A stretch of 64,000 nucleotides of DNA from Oscillospiraceae bacterium (lineage in GTDB: Bacteria > Bacillota > Clostridia > Oscillospirales > Oscillospiraceae), in NCBI GenBank assembly GCA_017458335.1, contig JAFTFT010000004.1, forward strand, positions 123,118 through 187,117, written 5' to 3'. Below the pieces are notes generated by a model. That model saw only the letters and a list, made by a program, of their open reading frames with translations. It made no database searches and had not been told where the DNA came from. Below are positions 34,095 to 43,511 of this stretch, one piece after another; positions within the stretch are counted from its first letter, which is position 1, and every line of letters begins with the position of its first letter. Made by a program: the position numbers and the translations under genes.

Positions 34095-34123
34095 TTGACC
34101 TTTATTCCGCCAGCTGGTATAAT
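34095..34123 (+). promoter_or_regulatory. Promoter of the lipoprotein-TIR operon
   Basis: TTGACC (34095-34100) and TATAAT (34118-34123) are 17 bp apart, 36 nt before the lipoprotein start. Confidence 0.75.
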
Positions 34124-34158: not shown

Positions 34159-34986
34159 ATGAGAGCGAAAGCGGGATGGATTGTCCTGGTGCTGGCGGGA
34201 TGCATGCTGCTTCTTTGCGGCTGTGGCAAGACCGTGGAACATATAGAAGAAAATGCTGCTGTTATTCAGGAGAGCGCGGAACCTGTTCAGGAAACGGAAG
34301 AGACTGCTGAAGAAGCAGCAAAACCGGCCGGAGAAACAATTGCGGAGGCGGAAGCCAATGCTGAGCCGAAAGCCGACGGAGAGCCGAAGGCGGAACCGGC
34401 AAAGACTCCCGTGACAGAGAAAGCGGAACAGGAGGAACCGGCCGAACCGGAGAAAACGGCGGAAGAACCGGCGCCCGCTGCGGCAGCACCGGAAGAGACA
34501 GAACCCGTAAATGAGAAACTCGTGATCGAAGCGCCCACGCCCGAGCAAACTGAAAATCAAAGAACCGTCGAGATCACGGTGCCGGCGAAATATGCCGACG
34601 TGCGCTACCGGATCGGGGAGATTACCTGGAACCCGGACGACTCGGCGACCTATCGCCTGACGGAAGAAGAACATGCCCGCCTGCTGGCAGAGGTCCGGTC
34701 GGATATTCAGCAGGAGCTGAATGAGATGTGCGAATCTCCGTACTTCCTTGATTTCTTCTCGATCAAGGCGAACGAGGACTGCTCGGTCTTTACGGTGGTC
34801 TGCCTCTCGATCGAGACGACCATGGCAGAGCAGGAGTCGGTCTCCCGGCTTTACGAATACGGCAGGAAGTTTGCCGCCTATGAGGGAAAAGAACCCGGCA
34901 ACATCCGCATCGACTTTATGACGAAGCTCGGAAATACCTTCGTTACACGCGATTCGGAGCGGGATGAACGGCAGGTAATTCCCGGG
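34159..34986 (+). CDS. Lipoprotein with Glu/Ala/Pro-rich spacer
   Basis: This is a protein of about 275 residues with a type II signal sequence ending LLLCGC (lipidated Cys near 22). Residues about 30-130 are low-complexity Glu, Ala, Pro and Thr repeats, probably an extended stalk. A folded domain of about 145 residues follows (from TVEITVPAKYADVRYRIGEI) with no family I recognise. The ATG at 34159 is favoured because AAGGAGG lies 8 nt upstream. It precedes the TIR-propeller gene by 57 nt, is probably co-transcribed, and may be an outer partner of that membrane protein. Confidence 0.75.
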
Positions 34987-35043
34987 TAACTGACTTATAC
35001 AGTGGAAAAATAAAACAGAGTAAAAACCAGCGGCGGTGATCGA

Positions 35044-38000
35044 ATGAACGAATACAGATACAACGCCTTTATCTCCTACCGGCGGACAGAGAGGGACGTC
35101 GCGGTGGCAAAGGAGATCCAGAGCAGCCTGGAACACTTTCGGGTGCCGAAGGGGATCCGCAGTGCCGGAGGAAAAGACCGAATCGACCGGATCTTCCGGG
35201 ATCAGGAAGAGCTTGAGATCACCAGCGATCTTTCCAGACGGATCGAGGACGCGCTGAGAACCTCGGAATACCTGATTGTGATCTGCTCGCCGGGATACAA
35301 GCAGTCCCTCTGGTGCCTGCGGGAACTGGAGACCTTCCTGAAACTCCGCGGACCGGAATATGTGCTCTGTGTACTGTCCGAAGGAGAGCCGCCGGAGGTT
35401 TTCCCGGATCTGCTGCGGCACGGCAGAAAAGAGATCACCGCAGAGGACGGAACAAAGGTCACCGTCGAGACGGACATCGAGCCGCTGGCCTGCGACTACA
35501 GAGGCGGCTTCAAGGCGGCACGGAAAACGGAACTGCCGCGGCTGGCAGCGGTGCTGCTGGGCTGCCGCTATGACGAGCTGGTCATGCGGCGGGAGCGTTA
35601 TCGCCGCAGACGGCTTGCCGCTTTCTTTTCAGCTGGCTTCATGGCGGCCGCGGCGGCCATCACATGGCTGATCTGGAGCAACGCGCAGATCAGCAAAAAC
35701 TACCGCCGGTCACTCATCAGCGAGTCCAGACTGCTGGCAATGCGGTCCCTGGATGCCTATGATACACAGGATCGCCTGCAGGCACTGACGACCGCGCTGC
35801 AGGCTCTGCCCAGCGAGGAGATGGACCGGCCGATCACGGATGAAGCGCAGTACGCGCTCGCACAGGCCAGCTATGCCTATCTTGTTCCGTATCAATTGCT
35901 GGAGACCTGGCGGATTGATGAAGCCGCGGATATCGACGTGTGCTTCATCAGCCGGGATGAAAAAACGCTGGTCTGTATGGATCACACGGGTACTTTCCGG
36001 AGCTATGAGCTCGAGACGAAAAAGCCGCTTGCCGTCTTTCGCGCTGCAGAGAACAATGCGCCGGTACAGACGGCAGAGGGAAGGGACGGAGAGCTGCTCT
36101 GCGCTCTCGACAATGGAAATCTGGTATCGGTGAATTACCGGACGGGAGCGGAAAACTGGCAGACACCAATCACCACGGCAATCAAGTGTTTCTGCCTGAA
36201 TAACAGAGGGACGCAGATTGCGGCCGGGGATGTGGACGGGGTTATGCTGCTCAACCCGGAGGGAAAGCCAATCCGCAGCCTTCCTCTGCCGGAGGCCTTT
36301 AACGGATATATTACAGAGCTCTGCTGGTCCCTGGATGACCGTCAGATCGCGGTGAAACTCAAACACTCCGGCGCTTCTCAATACCAGATGGGGATCTTTC
36401 AGGTCGAAAACGGGGAATTCTCGCTTCTGGATCCGGTGCTGCACCGGGTGGAGCAGTTCTGCTTCGATCAGGAGGGAGATTTCTATCTTCTGGGGAGTGA
36501 CGCGGAAAGCGGGATGGGACCGTCGGGAAATGTGACAAATCTGTCTCTGGTGCCCCATGTGCTGAGTGCCTTCCGAAACGAAGAAGAGCGATGGACACAG
36601 CCTCTGACGGCGGACGGCAGTGTCGGTACAGGGAAGATGCTTATCGGCGGAGAAGGAGACGGCCTCTGCCTCGCACTGGGCAGCACCATCATCCGCTTTG
36701 ACCGGGAGGGGACGCTGCTGGGAAGCCGGAATGTGGCACGGGAGATTCTGTGCCTTGTGTCCGCGGATTCCGGGGAAGTGAACTTCATTACGGTGAATGG
36801 GGAGATCGGCACGGTGTTTCCGGAAAGCGGCAGCGGCACCCTGGTCCGGACTTTCCCGGAACAGCTGGACGAGGCCCTCTGGTGTCATACCGGCGCGTTC
36901 CGGGAGCTTTGCTATCTGGTGCGGTCGAACGGAAATCTCTATTGCTACGAGAACGTCCGCGACGAATCTTTTTCCGCCTTTGAAGGAGAGGGAATCCCAT
37001 ATCGTCCGGAGGGATTCCTCCGCAGCGGGGACAGGCTGCTGGTACAGGCGGAGAAAAGACTGCTGATCTACAACCTGGAAACACATAGAATGGAACACAG
37101 CAGGGATCTGGAAGAGGGGGACGCCTGGCATCTTCTGACCGAGACCGGCGGCCTGGCCTGGCTGCTGCGGATCAGCGGGGAGGACGGAAGACTTTCGGCC
37201 ATGGCGCTGGATATGGAGAGCGGAGAACCGGTGTCCGACACGGCGTTTCCGGCTTATGACTTTTTCACTTCGGAAGGGTGGCTGAACCCTGCCGTCAGGT
37301 CGGATGCGATGTATCTCGAACGGTATTACGCGGCGCCTTCGCCGGCGGCGGTTCAGGGGAAGCTGATGGCGGTGCATGACCGGCAGAACTACAACAGGAT
37401 CGTGCTGTTCCGCCTGGACGACGGAACGGTACGGGAGCTGGATGTGGATGAAGCCATGGGAGACTGCGTCCTGATCTGTGAGCAAAACGCGGTACTGCTC
37501 CCATCCCCCCTGAGCCTGTCCCCGGATGGAAAGCGGATCTTTGCCGCCTGTACGGATCCGCGTGATGCGGGCAGGCATGCTGTCCTGATCAGCACGGAGG
37601 ACGGTGCGGTCACGTTCCTTCCGGGAGCGCCGGCGGATCTCAGCCTTGCGGCGTTCACGGAAAACGGAGTTATTTTCCCGGAAGCGGATGGAATTTCGGC
37701 TTACGGGGATGACGGGGAACGACAGTGGAAGATTCCCTATTCCGGAGAGGAAGCGAAGTCGTTTGCCTGGTTTGAGAACCGCCTCTACTGTGTTTTTCCA
37801 GACGGGAGTCTCGTCATCTATGAAGACGGAAAGGAACTTCGTCGGGTTCCGCTCTCCTTTGACCTGAGTCTGGATGTGATCACGGGAAAAGAGTTTCGGT
37901 ACGAATTTACTCCGTCGCGGCTGTACCTGTACTGTAATGGGCATATGAACGCGGTAACGCTGGATTCGGACAGTGACACGGCGGTTTATTACGCGTCTTC

Positions 38001-38208
38001 CGTGCTTGGAAGGCTTGAAGACCGTCAGGAACTGGTTTCCTACAGCCTGATCCCGGAAAAGATCCATCAGAGCGGCGAGATGAATCTCTATCTCGGATGT
38101 TTCCGGGAGTACAGCGTGGGTGAACTGATCGACCGGGCCCGGGAGCAGCTGGAACTCTATGAACCGGAGGCAGGGGAAGCAGAGGCAGCCGAACAAAAGA
38201 CGGCATAA
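35044..38208 (+). CDS. TIR domain - transmembrane - beta-propeller protein
   Basis: This is a 1054-residue protein. Residues about 4-175 form a TIR domain: YNAFISYRRTERD opens it, FRDQEELEI is box-2-like, and SLWCLRELE contains the predicted NAD-cleaving Glu94. A basic patch (183-190) and one hydrophobic helix (about 191-211) follow. The remaining 840 residues are repeating beta-rich blades resembling WD40 or PQQ propellers without strict WD motifs. Positive-inside charge puts TIR in the cytoplasm and the propeller outside. TIR domains in bacteria commonly degrade NAD in antiviral defence; this receptor-like layout could instead sense surface signals. The natural trigger is unknown. Confidence 0.85.
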   Translation: MNEYRYNAFISYRRTERDVAVAKEIQSSLEHFRVPKGIRSAGGKDRIDRIFRDQEELEITSDLSRRIEDALRTSEYLIVICSPGYKQSLWCLRELETFLKLRGPEYVLCVLSEGEPPEVFPDLLRHGRKEITAEDGTKVTVETDIEPLACDYRGGFKAARKTELPRLAAVLLGCRYDELVMRRERYRRRRLAAFFSAGFMAAAAAITWLIWSNAQISKNYRRSLISESRLLAMRSLDAYDTQDRLQALTTALQALPSEEMDRPITDEAQYALAQASYAYLVPYQLLETWRIDEAADIDVCFISRDEKTLVCMDHTGTFRSYELETKKPLAVFRAAENNAPVQTAEGRDGELLCALDNGNLVSVNYRTGAENWQTPITTAIKCFCLNNRGTQIAAGDVDGVMLLNPEGKPIRSLPLPEAFNGYITELCWSLDDRQIAVKLKHSGASQYQMGIFQVENGEFSLLDPVLHRVEQFCFDQEGDFYLLGSDAESGMGPSGNVTNLSLVPHVLSAFRNEEERWTQPLTADGSVGTGKMLIGGEGDGLCLALGSTIIRFDREGTLLGSRNVAREILCLVSADSGEVNFITVNGEIGTVFPESGSGTLVRTFPEQLDEALWCHTGAFRELCYLVRSNGNLYCYENVRDESFSAFEGEGIPYRPEGFLRSGDRLLVQAEKRLLIYNLETHRMEHSRDLEEGDAWHLLTETGGLAWLLRISGEDGRLSAMALDMESGEPVSDTAFPAYDFFTSEGWLNPAVRSDAMYLERYYAAPSPAAVQGKLMAVHDRQNYNRIVLFRLDDGTVRELDVDEAMGDCVLICEQNAVLLPSPLSLSPDGKRIFAACTDPRDAGRHAVLISTEDGAVTFLPGAPADLSLAAFTENGVIFPEADGISAYGDDGERQWKIPYSGEEAKSFAWFENRLYCVFPDGSLVIYEDGKELRRVPLSFDLSLDVITGKEFRYEFTPSRLYLYCNGHMNAVTLDSDSDTAVYYASSVLGRLEDRQELVSYSLIPEKIHQSGEMNLYLGCFREYSVGELIDRAREQLELYEPEAGEAEAAEQKTA

Positions 38209-38227
38209 GAACAAAAAGAAAAAAACA

Positions 38228-38264
38228 GAGCGCAGCTGCGGATCCACATTCCGCAATTGCGCTC
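38228..38264. terminator. Bidirectional terminator between the convergent TIR genes
   Basis: GAGCGCA and TGCGGA pair with TCCGCA and TGCGCTC around a 2-nt internal bulge. A CCTTTTTT run lies on one side and an A-rich tract (T run on the minus strand) on the other. Confidence 0.8.
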
Positions 38265-38273
38265 CGTCCTTTT

Positions 38274-39404
38274 TTATGAAGAAGGTACCACGGTGACCGT
38301 ATTGGCAGAAGTTCCGTCCGATTCCACAATCACCACGTTGTCAGTTCCCGGCGTCGGAGTGGGCGTCGGTGTCGGCTCAACGATCTGCGGCTCAGGCGTC
38401 TGGATCGTTTCCGGCGTGGGCGTCGGAGTCGGGGTGGGCGTCGGGGTGGGAACCGGTGTGAGTTCCGGTGTCACGACAGGTGTCAGGGTCGGGGTAGGAG
38501 TCGGCATGACTTCCGGCGCCAGGGTTGGTGTGGGGGAGGACTCCGCGGTCGGCGACGGTTCAAGAATGGGTGTGGGTGTCGCCTCAATGTCAAGCTCCGC
38601 TTCCGTGGAAACGGTGGGGGAAACGGATTCCGCTGTTTCCGCCGGTGGTGGGGGCGGCGCGGCAGGAGCCGAGGTGCCGGAATCAGCAAAATAGTAGTAC
38701 AGCAGATAAGCGCCGCCGAGCAGCAGGGCAATGATCAGAAGAACGCCGAGCACCTTGCCCACAGAGCCGGAAGAGGGAGGCTCTGCCTCTGCACGCGGCT
38801 TTGCGGGAACCTCACGGGAGCGGTCACGCTGCGTGCTCCGGTCGGAAGGCGACGGGGCGGAACTGCGGGAGGCTGAGACGGGACGGGAGCCGGAAGAAGA
38901 CCGGGGAGCAGAAGAACTCCGTGCCGCGGAAGCTGTGCCGGAGACCGCGGGGACGGCACGCCGGCTGCACCGGTCGAGTCCATCCGCCGAAAAGACTTTC
39001 CGGTAGAATTCTTCGGTGGCGGGATACTGGCTGTAATGCACCGCGAAGAGGCGGCCCAAACGCAGCTCCATGCCGGCCGGGAGTTCCACCTCGTCCAGAT
39101 AGATCAGGAGGATGGGCTTGTTTTTGTCACGGGCATAGTTCAGCTCGTCTTTGCAGTTGGAGGAAGCGAGATACTCCCGTGTAATAAGCGCGACAAAATA
39201 TCCGCAGCGCATGATGATGCGGGCGATGTTCTCATCCCATTCACGCCCGGGGATCAGACCCTCGTCATACCAGACGCGGTAGCCTGAGCGGTTCAGGCTG
39301 CGGATGACGGCGGTGGCACGATCCGCGTTGCGATGGGAATAACTGATGAATATGTAGGGCTCACTGCCGTGATAGGCGGCGAGAGAAGAATCTTGATAGG
39401 CCAT
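38274..39404 (-). CDS. TIR domain - transmembrane - Pro/Thr-repeat protein
   Basis: This is a 376-residue protein. Residues about 15-140 are a TIR domain: [29 protein letters not shown] and NCKDELNYA with the predicted catalytic Glu87. Residues about 150-215 are a Ser/Arg/Pro-rich linker. One membrane helix (about 217-240) is followed by a tail of about 135 residues dominated by PTPT repeats and acidic residues. The TIR domain is predicted inside and the repeat tail outside, in the wall. It faces the larger TIR gene tail to tail across a shared terminator. It may be a companion sensor or effector. Confidence 0.85.
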
Positions 39405-39449: not shown

Positions 39450-39478
39450 AGTATACGACCCGGCTCAAGCTCTGTCAA
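39450..39478 (-). promoter_or_regulatory. Promoter of the small TIR gene
   Basis: On the minus strand TTGACA (39478-39473) and TATACT (39455-39450) are 17 bp apart. A small GC hairpin with a T run (about 39501-39482) lies just upstream. Confidence 0.75.
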
Positions 39479-42563: not shown

Positions 42564-42649
42564 TGAAAATGCAGGAAATCCTGCTCAAAAGTGCAATGAC
42601 CAAATCCTGCCTGCCGGTATCGGACTGTTTCGTAAACCGCCATGCATGA
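42563..42649 (+). pseudogene. N-terminal remnant of a radical SAM (SPL-like) protein
   Basis: A 28-codon frame reads MKMQEILLKSAMTKSCLPVSDC followed by FVNRHA. It resembles the first residues of SPL-type radical SAM proteins (LTKS-LPVSDY-NPYVGC), but it stops before the Cys cluster. It overlaps the start of the DUF5131 gene by 8 nt. It is probably a deletion scar joining two once-separate genes; short length limits certainty. Confidence 0.35.
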
Positions 42650-43511
42650 CATCTGGAATCCGTGGCACGGCTGCAAAAAGTGCAGCGAGGGCTGCCAGAA
42701 CTGCTACATGTACTATCTGGACGCCCAGCGCGGGAAAGACGGAGGAGAGATTTACCGCACCAAGGCGGGCTTCCGATATCCGCTTTCGAAAGATCGGGAA
42801 GGACACTACAAGGTCAAAAGCGGGGAGATGCTGCGCGTTTGTATGACCTCCGATTTCTTCCTGGAGGAAGCCGACCCCTGGCGGGACGAGGCCTGGGAGA
42901 TCATGCGGCAGCGCCCGGACGTAAAATTCTTTCTGCTGACCAAGCGGCCGCAGCGGGTGGCAGAACATCTGCCATGGAATTGGGGCGACGGATGGGAGAA
43001 TGTGATGTTCAACGTCACCTGCGAAAACCAGCGCCGCGCCGACGAGCGTATCCCGATTCTGCTGGACCTGCCCTTTAAGCACAAGGGCATCATGTGTGCG
43101 CCCTTCATCGGCCCGGTCACGATAAAAGAATACCTGCCGACCGGTCAGATCGAGCAGGTGTTGTGCGATGGAGAGAACTATGGCGGCGCACGCCCCTGTC
43201 ATTATGAATGGGTCAAGGCCCTGCATGACGAGTGCGCAGCGTATCATGTGACCTTTGTTTTCTGCGGTACCGGGCGCCGCTTTGTGAAAAACGGCAAAAC
43301 CTACAGGCTCGAGGGCAGCGTACAAACAGAGCAGGCCAATAAGTCCGGCCTGAGCTTTCTGGGAAAGCCGATCGATTTCAAGCTCTGCGATACCTGGGGC
43401 TATCCGATTCCGAAGGAAGAGCTCTATGTGCCCCACTACGGCGTGCGCTGTGAAAACTGCGGCATGAGACTCACCTGCAACGGGTGCAGCCGGTGCGGAA
43501 AGTGTGAATAA
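42642..43511 (+). CDS. DUF5131 family protein (phage Gp37/Gp68-like)
   Basis: This 289-residue protein has the DUF5131 opening IWNPWHGCKKCSEGCQNCYM, with a Cys cluster that probably binds iron-sulphur in a radical-SAM-like fold. FFLLTKRPQRVAEHLPWNWGDGWENVMFNVTCENQ, near 95-130, is also typical. A C-terminal Cys-rich knuckle (CENCGMRLTCNGCSRCGKC) may bind zinc or a second cluster. The family is common in phages and mobile DNA; its reaction is unknown. The gene begins inside the radical-SAM remnant. Confidence 0.85.
   Translation: MHDIWNPWHGCKKCSEGCQNCYMYYLDAQRGKDGGEIYRTKAGFRYPLSKDREGHYKVKSGEMLRVCMTSDFFLEEADPWRDEAWEIMRQRPDVKFFLLTKRPQRVAEHLPWNWGDGWENVMFNVTCENQRRADERIPILLDLPFKHKGIMCAPFIGPVTIKEYLPTGQIEQVLCDGENYGGARPCHYEWVKALHDECAAYHVTFVFCGTGRRFVKNGKTYRLEGSVQTEQANKSGLSFLGKPIDFKLCDTWGYPIPKEELYVPHYGVRCENCGMRLTCNGCSRCGKCE

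Follow-up and report, generated by a model that had tools for sequence, protein, structure and literature searches.

Two membrane-anchored TIR proteins of an Oscillospiraceae bacterium as possible members of a modular receptor family in Clostridia

In bacteria, TIR proteins are for the most part treated as enzymes of intracellular defence. A layout with an N-terminal output domain, a single membrane helix and a C-terminal sensor is that of the PASTA-type kinases. According to the accessible part of one report, the known TIR defence proteins of bacteria either deplete nicotinamide adenine dinucleotide (NAD) or produce NAD-derived signals (PMC13142454); the accessible part of another describes proteins in which a TIR domain is joined via a nucleotide-binding domain (NBD) to WD40 or TPR repeats, and also mentions TIR proteins with short extra membrane segments (PMC9153377). 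A family of single-pass TIR receptors in Clostridia is not described in the accessible parts of the literature that we searched, a body that excludes subscription papers and most preprints (PMC7159879, PMC7075850, PMC13142454, PMC8635717, PMC11204291, PMC9153377, PMC7824862, PMC10907252). Here, we analyse a stretch of 64,000 nucleotides from an Oscillospiraceae bacterium (assembly GCA_017458335.1, contig JAFTFT010000004.1; hereinafter, the window), in which the genes P0002 and P0003, accompanied by a gene for a predicted lipoprotein, P0001, each encode a TIR domain, one predicted membrane helix and a C-terminal propeller or stalk-like tail, respectively. The balance of the evidence tips slightly towards P0002 and P0003 being separate members of a family of modular receptors that cross the membrane once, in which a cue from outside would cause clustering of the TIR domains and cleavage of NAD.

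Two TIR proteins with one predicted membrane helix

P0002 and P0003 are the only TIR_2 matches (E <= 0.01) in their genome (2.95 Mb, 84% complete). Both proteins match TIR_2 over its cut-off and have a glutamate at the conserved place of NAD-cleaving TIR enzymes; alignment to relatives located it at E94 of P0002 and E87 of P0003, as the original prediction had proposed. Among the 41 proteins with one helix introduced below, the Glu94 position is at least 90% conserved. Behind the helix of P0002, Pfam yields a single propeller match above cut-off, of the NUP159/214 type (E 1.9e-7). A profile of alignment A4, which consists of P0002 and ten long relatives (11 rows; L030 and L148 lack a propeller match), recovers WD40 structures from the PDB with E values as low as 4.8e-31; the matches fall into two blocks of the profile that lie apart from each other. 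No NTPase domain was recognised in P0002 by Pfam. In P0003, the segment behind the helix is a tail rich in proline and threonine (PT), which is likely to form a stalk.

P0001 and P0002 are read in the same direction, and P0003 converges on P0002 from the other strand (Table 1). The predicted anatomy of the locus, that is, a lipoprotein, a TIR-helix-propeller protein and a convergent TIR-helix protein with a PT tail, was borne out by the reading frames, domains and helices, and the TTGACA promoter proposed for P0003 was recovered as well. Eight promoter-like sites are present in the stretch, compared with 1.5 +/- 1.2 in shuffled sequences. The gap of 54 nucleotides between P0001 and P0002 suggests that the two are carried on one transcript. 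The hairpin between the convergent gene ends is likely to act as a terminator for both P0002 and P0003, and, given the T-runs that flank it, these two genes are probably separate transcription units.

Table 1. Coordinates of the predicted genes, domains and transcription signals in the window
Feature	Position	Strand	Remarks
Promoter before P0001, sigma-70 type	34095..34123	+	TTGACC-17-TATAAT, 11/12 consensus bases
P0001, predicted lipoprotein	34159..34989	+	Open reading frame, 276 amino acids; E/A/P-rich linker; small C-terminal domain without Pfam name
P0002, TIR - single membrane helix - WD40-type propeller	35044..38208	+	1054 amino acids
P0002 TIR domain	35068..35394	+	Residues 9-117; TIR_2 E 1.4e-10
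P0002 predicted catalytic Glu94 codon	35323..35325	+	Glu in 11/11 rows of alignment A4
P0002 predicted membrane helix	35617..35673	+	Residues 192-210; K/R: 7 in preceding 15 residues, 3 in following 15
P0002 propeller part recognised by Pfam	35920..36297	+	Residues 293-418; more WD40-like sequence after
Hairpin between convergent gene ends	38225..38267	both	T-run on each side; z -6.7 on +, -3.1 on −
P0003, TIR - single membrane helix - PT tail	38274..39404	−	376 amino acids
P0003 PT-rich tail	38277..38696	−	140 residues, 35 P and 31 T
P0003 predicted membrane helix	38697..38753	−	Residues 218-236; K/R: 2 before, 0 after
P0003 TIR domain	39027..39353	−	Residues 18-126; TIR_2 E 1.4e-20
P0003 predicted catalytic Glu87 codon	39144..39146	−	
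Promoter before P0003, sigma-70 type	39450..39478	−	TTGACA-17-TATACT, 11/12 consensus bases

The assignment of P0001 as a lipoprotein was made by eye from its hydrophobic N-terminus, which ends in LLCGC and precedes the linker; the putative lipobox has a cysteine at position -2, which is unusual. The C-terminal domain of P0001 recurs in further proteins that are lipoproteins or otherwise anchored, and the same genome encodes one of these. Weak matches of P0001 to PADLOC and NCBIfam models (PD-T4-6, GltJ and others) were judged to be low-complexity matches of the linker and were discarded.

A modular family and its partner genes

To define the family, we collected TIR_2 matches at E <= 1e-4 from 60 genomes, comprising that of the window and its relatives, and inspected the reading frame of all 92 matches, which come from 30 of these genomes. 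Of the 65 matches from the genome of the window and its genus, 41 show exactly one predicted helix behind the TIR domain, two show more, 21 lack any, and in a single one the helix precedes the domain. The 27 matches from other genera of the order include six with one helix after the TIR domain, one with more and 20 with none; none has a helix in front. Given the 41 one-helix proteins among 65, membrane-anchored TIR proteins are common in the genus rather than an oddity of the window. The original prediction had set P0002 and P0003 apart from typical, soluble TIR proteins of bacteria; within their own lineage, they are unexceptional. P0002 and P0003 share the features of this family, namely, a Glu-bearing TIR domain followed by one helix and a variable C-terminal module.

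Lysine and arginine are more numerous in the 15 residues on the TIR side of the helix than in the 15 residues on the far side in 38 of the 41 one-helix proteins, equally numerous in two and less numerous in one, with means of 5.1 and 2.1, respectively. In 35 of the 41, the TIR domain begins no later than residue 60. The later position in three others (L036, L040 and L137) may come from the start codon chosen; in L141, L149 and L150, the domain begins near residue 160, and the helix comes roughly 260-400 residues after that point.

The C-terminal modules are diverse. A Pfam scan of all 41 proteins at E <= 0.001, in which some matches fall under the curated cut-offs, detected 51 families; the 25 of them listed include TIR_2 (41 proteins), LRR_4 (13), TPR_2 (8), PQQ_2 (4) and RCC1_2 (3), along with the rarer Sel1 (2), DUF6273 (2), BspA-type LRR_5 (1) and Peripla_BP_4 (1). 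The position of a module relative to the helix was read for the individually scanned proteins: modules lie behind the helix in the inspected members of the LRR, TPR, Sel1, WD40, BspA and Peripla_BP_4 types and in the RCC1 members L080 and L141. L149 is different: its RCC1 matches precede a weak predicted helix (hydropathy 1.75), which is followed by DUF6273 alone. L149 and L150 lie on a contig (G025:C4) that encodes five large TIR proteins, of which one has an RCC1 end and two have DUF6273 ends.

Peripla_BP_4 and BspA-type LRR modules are normally extracytoplasmic. In L147 (1435-3054), a TIR domain (residues 23-135) is followed by a helix (166-184) and a Peripla_BP_4 domain (204-508; E 9.9e-17), making this protein a candidate for a ligand-sensing TIR receptor, and L157 has a TIR-helix-BspA LRR architecture. 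The presence of such modules behind the helix in these two relatives supports an outside orientation of the corresponding parts of related proteins.

In a tree of 42 TIR regions, P0002 belongs to a clade of WD40, TPR and Sel1 forms (support 99/98), and P0003 to a clade of PT-tail and RCC1 forms, other tails and one long-branch LRR row (99/99); RCC1 forms fall in two distant clades. Several branches are long and some of the joins may be false. Matches to P0003 that cover the repetitive PT tail alone, of which there are many, were not counted as relatives. Its best-scoring relative, encoded in L080, is 52% identical over residues 1-186, and two others are 56-57% identical over 147 residues. In L080, the gene for a TIR-helix-RCC1 protein converges on one for a kinase-helix-RCC1 protein, so that one sensor module is common to two kinds of output, a pattern expected of a receptor family. 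These two genes are clustered with a third, which encodes a kinase-helix-DUF285 protein with DUF285 present as repeats (L080:1148-8376).

A model of the TIR-helix region (E <= 1e-20) found matches in 39 of the 391 class genomes, representing 18 of 223 genera, and in six of 398 genomes of a phylum sample, the genome of the window being included in both counts and three further genomes being common to the two sets. The frame length is 1000-1070 amino acids in 34 of the 63 class frames listed. P0002 itself was matched at E <= 1e-30 in eight of 394 genomes of the order, its own included.

We further examined 25 long TIR loci from 24 genomes, taken from the searches of the order and the class. The helix after the TIR domain passes the hydropathy cut in 21 of them, and propeller matches were obtained for all four of the long proteins with a helix that were scanned by Pfam. 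The next gene in eight of the 25 loci (L226, L230, L231, L232, L235, L236, L241 and L242), a raw count, encodes a DHH-DHHA1 phosphoesterase of approximately 495 amino acids, identified by scanning four of the eight neighbours. The DHH gene is convergent with the TIR gene in six loci, downstream on the same strand in one, and upstream with an overlap of one base in another.

A second kind of partner is a membrane TIR protein without the glutamate. Adjacent pairs of membrane TIR genes, one Glu-bearing and one Glu-less, were found in 19 loci. In the eight LRR-type pairs (L092, L093, L094, L095, L121, L136, L139 and L151), S, A, F or N occupies the Glu column of every partner, whereas all nine canonical TIR domains aligned, including that of L137, which supplied a canonical row only, have E. 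Six pairs of the TPR type come from the genus of the window (L032-L035, L039 and L040; the residue at the Glu column was taken from the rows of the alignment) and five from another family of the class (L246-L250); among the latter, the Glu-bearing gene of L250 is a short fragment and that of L247 runs off the fetched stretch. The reading frames overlap by four nucleotides in six of the seven LRR-type pairs measured and in eight of 12 pairs measured overall. The LRR-type pairs are possibly receptor pairs of an active and a dead TIR protein. With P0002 and P0003, neither a Glu-less TIR partner nor a DHH neighbour was found.

Proposed function and alternatives

Several features are readable in the sequences themselves: the domains, the glutamate, the helix, the charge bias, the varied modules and the adjacency of P0001 and P0002 in two species. 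The orientation, clustering, NAD cleavage and signalling role of P0002 and P0003 we infer. The N-terminal TIR domain would lie in the cytoplasm and the C-terminal part outside, with the one helix crossing the membrane, and the P0002 propeller or the P0003 PT stalk would sense a cue from the envelope or from beyond the cell. Binding or clustering on the outer side would then assemble the TIR domains inside, which would cleave NAD via the conserved glutamate and release a nucleotide product; this product would be the signal and, at high output, NAD would be drained. P0001 may be an accessory of P0002, and P0003 would be an independent gene that merely converges on it. In some relatives, a dead TIR partner might tune the assembly and a DHH enzyme might remove the product. 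By analogy with these DHH neighbours and Glu-less partners, a nucleotide signal appears somewhat likelier than plain loss of NAD, since DHH enzymes are reported to act on cyclic nucleotide linkages (PMC7824862). A bolder claim, that Clostridia hold true Toll-type receptors, a large and modular set of single-pass proteins in which outside sensors (LRR, propeller, periplasmic-binding-protein, RCC1 and others) control cytoplasmic TIR enzymes producing a nucleotide messenger, with dead-TIR co-receptors encoded alongside, with a DHH off-switch in some lineages and with modules shared with membrane kinases, we advance tentatively, with doubt outweighing belief.

Several observations weigh against the receptor proposal, and the alternatives draw on some of them. 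The eight DHH loci represent two families and three genera, and six of them come from a single genus, g221, in which the DHH gene is present in six of the seven loci fetched; shared descent therefore explains part of the linkage, although not all of it, because the gene arrangements differ. The DHH gene is missing from 17 of the 25 long TIR loci. The DHH protein has no match in the genome of the window, for which reason it was rejected as a partner of P0002, and the 60 genomes gave weak matches only (best E 4.7e-9), none extending past residue 318 of 494. Moreover, the helix and charge calls derive from a simple hydropathy window rather than a trained topology predictor, and several of the genomes are incomplete assemblies.

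The alternative that survives best is that P0002 and P0003 are membrane-anchored effectors of abortive infection: phage contact or wall damage would free the TIR domains, NAD would be drained and the cell stopped, with no dedicated messenger. We regard this as unlikely, even though there is evidence in its favour. Both proteins retain the catalytic glutamate, and depletion of NAD or production of NAD-derived signals is what the accessible part of the literature describes for bacterial TIR defence proteins (PMC13142454). The TIR parts match the PADLOC models SAVED-TIR, ThsB and, for P0003, Argonaute-linked TIR (best E 1.1e-7), and, of the proteins with a solved structure, the CRISPR-associated TIR protein Cat1 is closest to the P0003 TIR domain (residues 18-92, E 6.2e-5). 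Given these matches, descent from intracellular defence TIR proteins is possible. However, no defence island was seen among the ten flanking genes, of which one has a PADLOC match (DUF5131), eight are assigned by Pfam name to metabolism or housekeeping and one lacks such a name, and the DHH neighbours and Glu-less partners of the relatives fit signalling better. The DUF5131 protein, encoded at 42642-43511 (+) of the window, 3 kb from P0003, matches the PADLOC candidates PDC-M30B and PDC-M41B.

Alternatively, the TIR domains could lack enzymatic activity and serve as platforms for docking, like those of animal Toll-like receptors, with the glutamate playing a structural role. The retention of a Glu-less membrane TIR protein beside a Glu-bearing one in 19 loci agrees with this view and suggests that some TIR domains in the family act without catalysis. 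By contrast, all rows of alignment A4 and all nine canonical LRR-type TIR domains aligned have the glutamate, and all eight LRR-type partners differ; the residue is retained wherever the remainder of the TIR domain is canonical. As a general account of P0002 and P0003, docking seems to us rather improbable.

Comparably doubtful is a cytoplasmic propeller, whereby the hydrophobic segment would anchor the protein without crossing the membrane, or the protein would be inverted. WD40, TPR and Sel1 repeats are usually cytoplasmic, and most of the repeat types seen are of this intracellular kind. The P0002 helix has moderate hydropathy (1.83), and four of the 25 long relatives have no helix at the cut used. 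Nor is cysteine scarce behind the helix of P0002 (2.13%, versus 1.50% in exported and 1.80% in cytosolic proteins, a comparison with little power in this lineage); cysteine exclusion was discarded as a test of topology, there being no useful contrast between the two classes. Against a cytoplasmic location stand the charge bias in 38 of the 41 one-helix proteins and the normally extracytoplasmic module types behind the helix of L147 and L157. The charge bias and the modules of these two relatives speak for the receptor-like layout of the original prediction; the cysteine contrast is uninformative.

The relationship among the three genes was surveyed in the same 60 genomes, of which 13 have matches to P0002, 35 to P0003 and five to P0001, the genome of the window being counted each time. 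In Lachnospira sp. UBA4285 (L106), the end of a P0001-like gene is followed, 184 bases further on, by a P0002-like gene, with about 73% identity; the contig is 3.2 kb long and ends inside both genes. P0003 was not found in the genome of this species, the completeness of which is not given. In another genome (G010), P0001-like and P0003-like genes lie on separate contigs, and the contig of the P0001-like gene, 3.5 kb long, carries no TIR gene, another point that counts against the proposal; the neighbour of this P0001-like gene we take, by eye, to encode ribosomal protein L21. P0002-like and P0003-like genes are also on separate contigs in G022, and relatives of P0001 and P0003 stand apart from P0002-like genes wherever seen. 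Overall, two species back the adjacency of P0001 and P0002, the order of which L106 retains, and P0003, not found there, gives the impression of an independent gene. The original prediction had proposed a conserved linkage of all three genes; the P0001-P0002 part recurs in the second species, and the link to P0003 does not hold, so that a conserved three-gene unit was rejected. That P0001, P0002 and P0003 nevertheless make up one functional system, as adjacency, convergence, the near-consensus promoter of each unit and the retained P0001-P0002 order might suggest, is highly improbable in view of the failure to find P0003 in UBA4285, the dispersal of P0001 and P0003 relatives and the strong terminator-like hairpin between P0002 and P0003.

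Comparison with known systems

Viewed as putative receptors, P0002 and P0003 resemble several described systems in part. The P0003 TIR domain has Cat1 as its nearest relative of solved structure; however, P0003 has a membrane helix and a PT tail, and no CRISPR-type sensor domain is reported in it. With Thoeris, the two proteins share a distant likeness to ThsB_TIR (Pfam scores of 19.2 and 12 bits, against a cut-off of 21.2 that neither reaches), the catalytic glutamate and a plausible nucleotide signal; NCBIfam ThcB4, of Thoeris type III, was matched only far under its cut-off. Unlike Thoeris, P0002 and P0003 have no adjoining ThsA, and they are predicted to span the membrane, with a large part behind the helix. 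ThsA was not found among the ten flanking genes. A STALD search for a SIR2-SLOG ThsA gave no match in the genome, but neither did it in the control genomes. A TM-macro ThsA was not found in this genome, 84% complete as it is: of four macro-domain matches, three reading frames lack a helix, and the fourth (L188) has one weak hydrophobic stretch (1.61). Thoeris membership was rejected, there being no ThsA beside P0002 or P0003. A macro-domain gene, L187 (G000:C33), directly precedes what we recognised by eye as a DarT-like gene, possibly forming a DarTG toxin-antitoxin pair.

The bacterial TIR-NBD-WD40/TPR proteins likewise have an N-terminal TIR domain and C-terminal WD40 or TPR repeats, as far as the accessible part of their description goes (PMC9153377), whereas here a membrane helix lies between the two parts and P0002 has no NTPase domain recognised by Pfam. 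The PASTA-type membrane Ser/Thr kinases have the same layout, and the RCC1 module is common to a kinase and a TIR protein in L080, but the output here is a TIR domain rather than a kinase. If the proposal is correct, the joining of TIR domains to a helix and many sensors would mean that NAD-based TIR signalling also senses the outside world, with the DHH protein as a candidate phosphoesterase for breakdown of the signal.

Such proteins would offer a direct comparison with animal Toll receptors, and the active/dead TIR pairs are testable. As in Toll-like and IL-1 receptors, a single helix separates the TIR domain, predicted to be inside, from the sensor, and LRR_4 matches occur in 13 of the 41 genus members. 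The order is reversed here, with the TIR domain at the N-terminus; in place of an LRR, P0002 and P0003 have a propeller and a PT stalk, respectively, and the catalytic glutamate is kept. We do not claim homology of the outside parts.

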